Source: Holophagae bacterium (lineage in GTDB: Bacteria > Acidobacteriota > Holophagae > Acanthopleuribacterales > Acanthopleuribacteraceae). From it: 64,000 nucleotides of DNA. Below are positions 8,357 to 9,789 of this stretch, in pieces (position 1 is the first letter of the stretch; each line of letters starts with the position of its first letter). The notes below the pieces were generated by a model, which made no database searches, was not told the origin of the DNA, and saw only the letters and a list, made by a program, of their open reading frames with translations. The stretch lies in the NCBI GenBank assembly GCA_029263455.1, contig JAJCXM010000001.1:124001-188000 (forward strand), written 5' to 3'. A program made the position numbers and the translations under genes.

Positions 8357-9025
8357 CTAATAGGTATGCATAATATCTGACAGTGGTTTGCGCTTGATGT
8401 CTGGAATGCGTGCACCATCAGCTGGATATCCAACCGGCATTAACAAAATCGGCACTTCGTTTTTGGGTCTCTCGAGTATTTCATTCAAGAAGGCCATCGG
8501 ATTAGGTGTATGGGTTAAGGTAGCCAGGCCGGCATTATGTAAAGCGGCAATGAGCATGCCCGCTGCAATACCAACGGACTCGTTGACGTAATAGTTCTTT
8601 TTACGTTGGCCATTAACTAACCGGTAGTTCTCCTTAAATACAATCACCAATGTGGGCACGATATCGATATATTCCTTGACGTGATCGGTGCCAAAAATCT
8701 CAAGGTCTTCAAGCCAATCTTCAGGGAAGCGGCCCGAATAGTTGACCCGTTCCTCAACTTCAGCTGCCTCACGAATGCGATGTTTAATATCAGGGTCAGT
8801 GACCACGCAAAAGTGCCACGGTTGTTTGTGAGCCCCTGATGGGGCCGTGCCAGCAGCTCGAATGGCGTCTTCAAGGACACCCTCAGGAATAGGATCGGCA
8901 GAAAACTGGCGCACTGTTCGCCTCTGGTCCATAAGCTCGTAATATGAACGTGCCCGCTCTTGCATTTCCGTTGCTTCGCGTCGCTTAAACGCATAGGGAA
9001 TAAATGAATCTTTAATTTGTGTCAT
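8357..9025 (-). CDS. Nitroreductase-family protein, iodotyrosine-deiodinase-like
   Basis: This is a flavin (FMN) oxidoreductase of 222 aa. Family features are RRTVRQFS near the N-terminus (FMN phosphate contact), APSGAHKQPWHF (FMN and active-site loop), and the block YYVNESVGIAAGM followed by LHNAGLATLTHTP. The last block and the EAAEVEERVNY...W segment resemble the iodotyrosine dehalogenase branch (IYD), which reductively dehalogenates halotyrosines; substrate use is inferred. Start choice: ATG 9025 follows GGAAAGG. The same frame extends in phase to an ATG at 9124, but that extension runs through a terminator hairpin and has low-complexity, non-family sequence. Regulation probably acts through the leader described separately. 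Confidence 0.85.
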   Translation of the reverse strand: MTQIKDSFIPYAFKRREATEMQERARSYYELMDQRRTVRQFSADPIPEGVLEDAIRAAGTAPSGAHKQPWHFCVVTDPDIKHRIREAAEVEERVNYSGRFPEDWLEDLEIFGTDHVKEYIDIVPTLVIVFKENYRLVNGQRKKNYYVNESVGIAAGMLIAALHNAGLATLTHTPNPMAFLNEILERPKNEVPILLMPVGYPADGARIPDIKRKPLSDIMHTY

Positions 9026-9065
9026 GGTTGCCTTTCCGCCTTCCCGTGCGAAACGCGATTCTAAC

Positions 9066-9107
9066 AAAAAAAGGGGCCCAGCATTAGGAAATCCTTCAGC
9101 TGGGCCC
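9066..9107 (-). terminator. Strong intrinsic terminator in the nitroreductase leader
   Basis: Read on the reverse strand, GGGCCCAGC (99-107 of the 9000s) pairs with GCTGGGCCC (74-82). An inner AGGA/TCCT helix is also present, and a run of seven T follows at 9072-9066. This is a textbook Rho-independent terminator on the reverse strand. It lies only about 40 nt before the nitroreductase ATG at 9025 and about 150 nt after the stop of the upstream gene. Confidence 0.75.
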
Positions 9108-9111
9108 AACG

Positions 9112-9157
9112 TTTTGACCAACATGGTTTCCCTGTTGGAGGAGGAGTTTGGTCAAAA
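9112..9157 (-). promoter_or_regulatory. Alternative-hairpin leader upstream of the terminator
   Basis: A perfect 10-bp inverted repeat, TTTTGACCAA with TTGGTCAAAA (arms 9112-9121 and 9148-9157), overlaps a second possible hairpin, CCAACA with TGTTGG (9118-9123 and 9133-9138). The two are mutually exclusive because they share 9118-9121. The 26-nt spacer contains a GGGA and an ATG (9124) in frame with the nitroreductase. Such competing helices just before a terminator are the usual layout of a riboswitch or attenuator. No T-box, FMN or other known motif was recognised. Confidence 0.45.
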
Positions 9158-9209
9158 TCGGGGATTGAGTAGAGGGAAATCGGGACGTTCTCCCTCATGC
9201 TCTAATAAC

Positions 9210-9238
9210 AATGTAATGCCAAAAATTATTTCAGACAA
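9210..9238 (-). promoter_or_regulatory. Putative sigma70 promoter for the nitroreductase leader
   Basis: On the reverse strand TTGTCT (9233-9238) is separated by 17 nt from TACATT (9210-9215). Transcription would begin near 9203 and produce a leader of about 180 nt that contains the alternative hairpins and the terminator before the coding start. Confidence 0.35.
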
Positions 9239-9255: not shown

Positions 9256-9789
9256 TCAGAAAGCAATGAAAGGGAGCGAGCGCAAAACTCTCTCGCTTAA
9301 GAGTTTTAGCGACAAAACAAAATGGCCCGCAGCATCCCTAATCGACTCGTCATCATCGAGTACTTTGGCAGCTTCGCGGGCAGCCAGTGATAAATACGAA
9401 GCGACACTGTCTTGCTGCGCAGCCTGTTCCAAATGGCAGGCGATTTTTTCCTCTTCACCCGTGTGCACCCAGATCGAATGGGTAACTGGATCACCATAAA
9501 CCATAATATGCATGTAGTCTTGGTCGCGGATTTCTAATAACGGACGAGGTCCGTCCGGGCTCATTAAGGGCGACTGTACCACCGAAAACCTGTCCTTATC
9601 ATTCCAGAGACGCAGCTCCAAATCGGCGATCCCCGAGACGGCTGTCATTATTTCTTCTAATTCACCTTTGGCATATAAGGTGCCGTGACCTTCCGGACAC
9701 TGCCAGGCGTGAAAAACTTTGTACGATTTGTGCTGGAGCGTTGCTTCACATTCGGGACAAAGGCGTATCAGTGATTCCGTCTCTTCCAT
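9256..9789 (-). CDS. Zinc-ribbon protein of unknown function
   Basis: This 177-aa protein begins with a zinc-ribbon-like N-terminus: CPEC at residues 11-14 and CPEGH at about 31-35, the layout of TFIIB-type zinc fingers in bacterial small proteins. The remaining 140 residues have no family I recognise. They include a beta-rich stretch (LRLWNDKDRFSVVQSPLM) and a helical C-terminus rich in Ala, Asp and Glu. It is transcribed divergently from asnB; the two starts are about 100 bp apart across a candidate operator. It is upstream of the nitroreductase on the same strand, but a terminator separates them. Confidence 0.6.
   Translation of the reverse strand: MEETESLIRLCPECEATLQHKSYKVFHAWQCPEGHGTLYAKGELEEIMTAVSGIADLELRLWNDKDRFSVVQSPLMSPDGPRPLLEIRDQDYMHIMVYGDPVTHSIWVHTGEEEKIACHLEQAAQQDSVASYLSLAAREAAKVLDDDESIRDAAGHFVLSLKLLSERVLRSLPFIAF

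Follow-up and report, generated by a model that had tools for sequence, protein, structure and literature searches.

A stretch of 64,000 nucleotides from a Holophagae bacterium (the window) most likely encodes a small RNA that is restricted to its lineage and previously unlisted. It lies on the minus strand, between a gene for a 177-aa protein and a nitroreductase gene. On the sequence evidence, it is probably a free-standing, trans-acting anti-Shine-Dalgarno (anti-SD) RNA of approximately 138 nt, with the nitroreductase gene transcribed separately; we infer its transcription, Hfq binding, the trans anti-SD mechanism and the targets. At the sequence level it has the features of a bacterial small RNA, namely its own promoter, its own intrinsic terminator and conservation in sequence or structure. 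Compensatory changes in its stems and the lack of coding-type substitutions indicate a conserved RNA structure that does not code for protein. It was recognised from sequence alone, through conservation that matches that of tRNAs in a pair of genomes whose synonymous sites are largely randomised. To our knowledge, regulatory small RNAs of Acidobacteriota have scarcely been described, and this RNA offers a clear starting point for tests of anti-SD control by small RNAs in that group.

Architecture of the small RNA

The whole unit (about 9203–9066, minus strand) comes with a conserved promoter of its own and comprises three hairpins and an intrinsic terminator. A preliminary description had listed a promoter, hairpins, a terminator and a start codon for the nitroreductase (ATG, 9025), and all are present on the minus strand at the positions given there. 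The small-RNA promoter (9210–9238) consists of a −35 box, TTGTCT (9238–9233), a 17-nt spacer and a −10 box, TACATT (9215–9210). The start is predicted at about 9203, which would place hairpin 1 at the beginning of the RNA. Hairpin 1 (9172–9196, minus strand) has an 8-bp stem, GAGGGAGA/UUUCCCUC, and a conserved loop, ACGUCCCGA. A 59-nt core (9108–9166, minus strand) is made up of a linker, AAUCCCC, and hairpin 2 (UUUUGACCAA/UUGGUCAAAA), which carries an anti-SD loop, ACUCCUCCUCCAACAGGGAAACCAUG. The intrinsic terminator (9066–9107, minus strand) is a 9-bp stem, GGGCCCAGC...GCTGGGCCC (9107–9074), followed by a C and seven Ts (9072–9066).

Computed folds are stable. The terminator, with its 16-nt loop, folds at −24.2 kcal/mol (z = −4.2), and the 139-nt RNA from 9203 to 9065 at −54.7 kcal/mol (z = −5.3), a value that none of 200 shuffled sequences equalled; the copy in the sister genome, described below, gives z = −5.0. 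The cut-offs of a simple promoter and terminator scan were such that it missed both the promoter and this terminator. When Rfam 15 was used to query the window, the sole match was a tRNA elsewhere; no family exceeded its gathering threshold at the element, where the best relaxed matches were far below threshold.

Hairpin 2 can pair in two registers, an outer pairing written in DNA letters as TTTTGACCAA/TTGGTCAAAA (9157–9148/9121–9112, minus strand) and an inner pairing, CCAACA/TGTTGG (CCAACA/UGUUGG in RNA; 9138–9133/9123–9118, minus strand). These had been presented as mutually exclusive hairpins. Both pairings exist, but they compete for UUGG alone, while UUUUGA/UCAAAA persists in both. The UUGG arm is able to pair with either of two CCAA copies that flank CUCCUCCU (the CUCC repeat), and the two registers differ by 3.2 kcal/mol (−15.6 versus −12.4 kcal/mol). 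Neither touches the terminator stem.

Upstream of the small RNA is the 177-aa gene (9256–9789, minus strand), and downstream is the nitroreductase gene (8357–9025, minus strand), which encodes 222 aa and matches Pfam PF00881 (E = 1.5e-22). The 177-aa gene was found in 7/7 genomes of the family, but it is beside the RNA only in this genus. Its product has no Pfam match, includes an N-terminal CPxC...CPxGHG zinc-ribbon-like motif and is 54–71% identical to its counterparts outside its own genome.

Conservation and distribution

The window is from a 6.2-Mb genome with one same-genus relative, here called the sister, among the genomes compared. An exact 21-mer scan located the sister copy on contig JAGQSC010000003.1 of the Acidobacteria MAG HKST-UBA04, where it is flanked by the same two genes. 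The two genomes have diverged extensively, and the third codon positions of their nitroreductase genes are only 39% identical. Identity varies sharply by segment. It is 47% just upstream of the small-RNA promoter (29/62 columns), 75% in the promoter (27/36 columns; TTTGTCGGAAATAA...GGAATTACATTGTTA in the sister), 59% in hairpin 1, 100% in the linker and hairpin 2, 47% in the terminator hairpin, 90% in the T run and the extended −10 motif that follows it, and 46% in the 5′ UTR of the nitroreductase gene.

Hairpin 1 and the terminator have changed in a manner that preserves their pairing. In the sister, the hairpin 1 stem is GCGGGUAA/UUACUCGC, with 2/8 pairs changed on both sides, 2/8 changed on one side and none broken, and the loop is the same. 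The sister terminator has a different 7-bp stem, GGGCUCC/GGAGCCC, in which two pairs are changed on both sides, and ends in six Us. Four pairs in total are thus double-changed, and none is broken in hairpin 1 or the 7-bp terminator core. The linker and hairpin 2, including both stem arms, are invariant (59/59 nt). In a comparison of the two genomes over 1.29 Mb and 1.20 Mb of sequence, with 217 reciprocal best hits, the only identical runs of at least 50 nt were this core and four runs in tRNA genes; the next longest was 35 nt. The tRNA runs were identified by their sequence, and one is the Rfam tRNA match in the window. Only tRNAs rival the 59-nt core, and we conclude that tRNA-like constraint acts on it as an RNA (or DNA) element. 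The suggestion in the preliminary description that an undescribed regulatory RNA lies here is well supported by the lack of an Rfam match at threshold, the co-varying stems and a core conserved like tRNA.

Two other shared sequences were noted in the comparison. At G000:C26:124673-124761 (in L085; G000 is this genome), two 29-nt identical runs approximately 31 nt apart are common to sister contig C63. The second run is AT-rich and probably non-coding, and the pair is unusually conserved for these two genomes. One 34-nt sequence lies near contig starts in both genomes (G000:C1:20-53 and G000:C14:20-53; G001:C27:47-80 in the sister, G001), which suggests a repeat that broke the assembly, possibly an rRNA operon.

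The element is present in a single copy in each of its two carriers. When 93 genomes from the class and 396 from the phylum were searched with a covariance model, only this genome and the sister scored (120 and 127 bits). Matches of 18–25 bits were rejected, as two of the strongest fall within a coding sequence or across its end and their count is within chance expectation. An exact 21-mer scan of a genome collection covering 85k species returned the sister MAG alone, and a plasmid collection contained no match to the element. The 177-aa gene occurs in all five of the family's other genomes and a nitroreductase orthologue in 4/5, with the two genes apart. In these other genera, the element is near neither gene, as judged at the four nitroreductase orthologues (G003, G004, G005 and G006) and in the 3′ regions of the 177-aa gene. 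As a nitroreductase leader, the element is thus kept in the sister but absent upstream of the orthologues in the four genomes from other genera.

Candidate targets and mode of action

We propose that the RNA has a sigma-70-type promoter of its own, from which it is transcribed from near 9203 as far as the terminator (9107–9066), and that this terminator is active at all times and not conditional. In this model, a scaffold would be formed by hairpin 1 and the terminator, with hairpin 2 as the working part. The large loop of hairpin 2 includes CUCCUCCUCC, the complement of Shine-Dalgarno sequences. By trans pairing with mRNAs at their ribosome-binding sites, this loop most likely blocks translation, probably with Hfq. 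An hfq gene is present in both this genome and the sister (76.9 bits), and both terminators are U-tailed (U7 here, U6 in the sister). Sliding of UUGG between the CCAA copies may alter the exposure of the CUCC repeat that they flank.

Within its own genome, the loop finds its best complement at UCCCUGUUGGAGGAGGAUUUAUG, the ribosome-binding site of a gene for a 147-aa membrane-type protein on contig C9. The pairing is perfect over 17 consecutive pairs (−36.4 kcal/mol). Among 966 other ribosome-binding sites no run exceeded 10, and 30 control loops reached at most 14. The 147-aa protein (L009:1521-1964; G000:C9:20364-20804, plus strand) has apparent membrane segments. Contig C9 is plasmid-like or integrative (ICE-like), as it carries ParA/ParB, a RepB primase and a TraG-type ATPase. 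The sister lacks this candidate target gene. Among 204 orthologous pairs of ribosome-binding sites, a comparison that covers about one-fifth of each genome, the real loop paired no better than control loops. Two further matches were rejected as targets, one because it lies inside a conserved-protein gene (C22/C10, FEEEL codons) and the other, a strong duplex on C34, because it falls within coding sequence, close to where the protein starts, and not at a ribosome-binding site. Given a single outstanding match and no excess in the 204 pairs, we favour trans anti-SD control, as a candidate mechanism only.

An alternative that leaves the free-standing RNA in place is that the core acts via a bound protein or ligand, as a sponge or structured RNA, and not by pairing with mRNAs. 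We regard this as rather unlikely. Both arms of hairpin 2 are invariant while the other stems drift, which is more than a simple pairing loop needs, and conserved targets are not enriched among the 204 pairs; against this, the loop consists of anti-SD sequence and no known RNA family in Rfam matches. A CsrA sponge was set aside, as the GGA motifs are not all kept in the sister, nor retained in every hairpin. The core might also be a register-switching RNA, in which UUGG slides between the CCAA copies and a bound factor thereby covers or uncovers the anti-SD repeat. This appears improbable, though if true, a chromosomal small RNA with a register switch would also silence a gene on a plasmid or integrative element resident in the cell.

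Transcription of the nitroreductase gene and relation to known systems

The preliminary description saw too little space behind the terminator for a promoter, so that any transcript would have to read through, and took the region for a conditional-terminator leader of the nitroreductase gene. The first claim is wrong, and the second is not supported. An extended −10 motif, TGTTAGAAT (9058–9066, minus strand), fits directly behind the terminator, beginning at the last U of the run and 32 nt before the ATG at 9025. It is conserved as TGTTAnAAT, with TGTTACAAT in the sister. TGTTAnAATCGCG is conserved there too, and the sister keeps TGTTACAATCGCG though the preceding terminator stem and the following leader differ. 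In this genome, the motif TGnTAnAAT occurs at 0.181/kb upstream of genes in the sense orientation and 0.057/kb in the antisense orientation, compared with 0.009/kb in coding sequence, an enrichment of about 20-fold upstream of genes relative to coding sequence, and mostly lies 7–54 nt before the start. We therefore propose this motif as the nitroreductase promoter, from which the gene would be transcribed independently and not by read-through.

An attenuator controlled by a ligand or protein, in which the core senses and the terminator is the output, nevertheless has some points in its favour. The order of the parts, first a conserved core and then a terminator whose stem has been rewritten, is reminiscent of a riboswitch and its expression platform, and the linker CCCC could pair with the first Gs of the terminator 5′ arm. 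The downstream gene is the same in both genomes and, as there are only two carriers and both have the same neighbours, the synteny within the genus is compatible with a cis link to the nitroreductase. However, no antiterminator was found. Holding the terminator 3′ arm open costs 17.5 kcal/mol (best fold −37.2 versus −54.7 kcal/mol), and the best open-arm fold sequesters only the first few bases of the 5′ arm. Prefixes that stop before the 3′ arm fold into no strong competing structure, both registers of hairpin 2 leave the terminator free, the gene has its own conserved extended −10 behind the T run, and four orthologues in other genera of the family are without the leader. We thus consider attenuation unlikely; given the lack of an antiterminator and the conserved extended −10, it is simplest to assume that the small RNA is a transcript in its own right and that the gene behind it is transcribed independently. 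The locus also shows how a terminator that closely precedes a start codon may be taken for an attenuator by mistake where an extended −10 promoter follows it.

The RNA might instead be processed or terminated from the mRNA of the 177-aa gene as a 3′-UTR-derived product, or the region might simply be a terminator and spacer. The 177-aa gene is the conserved upstream neighbour within the genus, and no other terminator was seen between its stop codon and 9107. However, neither the 59 identical nucleotides nor the conserved promoter can be accounted for by a plain terminator, and outside the genus the 177-aa gene is without such a 3′ region, making this origin doubtful.

Two reading frames were considered. 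The ATG at 9124 is indeed in frame with the ATG at 9025, but the SD-like GGGA is only a few nucleotides away from it, too close for a normal ribosome-binding site, and the 33-codon extension is not conserved as protein. A small protein from the 45-codon frame at 9198–9061 (minus strand), which is open through the whole RNA and across the core in the sister, is very improbable and was set aside because the identical core contains no synonymous change, against 39% third-position identity in the neighbouring gene, while the sister RNA holds no start codon in that frame and the frames end at different places; we judge the open frame to be chance or a by-product of RNA conservation.

Like the attenuators with premature 5′ terminators surveyed previously (PMC2965389), this locus has an intrinsic terminator shortly before a start codon and structured RNA upstream. 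Unlike them, it has a promoter motif behind the terminator and no antiterminator was found. Among small RNAs, 6C/B11 of Actinobacteria has two C-rich hairpin loops that pair with the G-rich 5′ untranslated regions of mRNAs (PMC10470900). The RNA described here also has a C-rich hairpin loop, but it combines one CUCC-repeat loop, one UCCC loop and a third hairpin with a U run, and the 6C/B11 Rfam model did not match it at the gathering or relaxed threshold. NfeR1 (alpha-r14) of alphaproteobacteria has three hairpins, each with CCUCCUCCC, and silences mRNAs at the translation initiation region independently of Hfq (PMC10746234). In its proposed mode of action the RNA resembles both alpha-r14 and 6C/B11, but the features that define them are not those seen here, and it belongs to neither. 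No sequence relation to NfeR1, which is from a different phylum, was found. The two are nevertheless alike in length (approximately 120–140 nt), three hairpins, an unpaired anti-SD sequence and sequence-variable stems (PMC10746234), and differ in that here hairpin 2 alone carries CUCCUCCUCC (a CUCC repeat), on a stem that is invariant.
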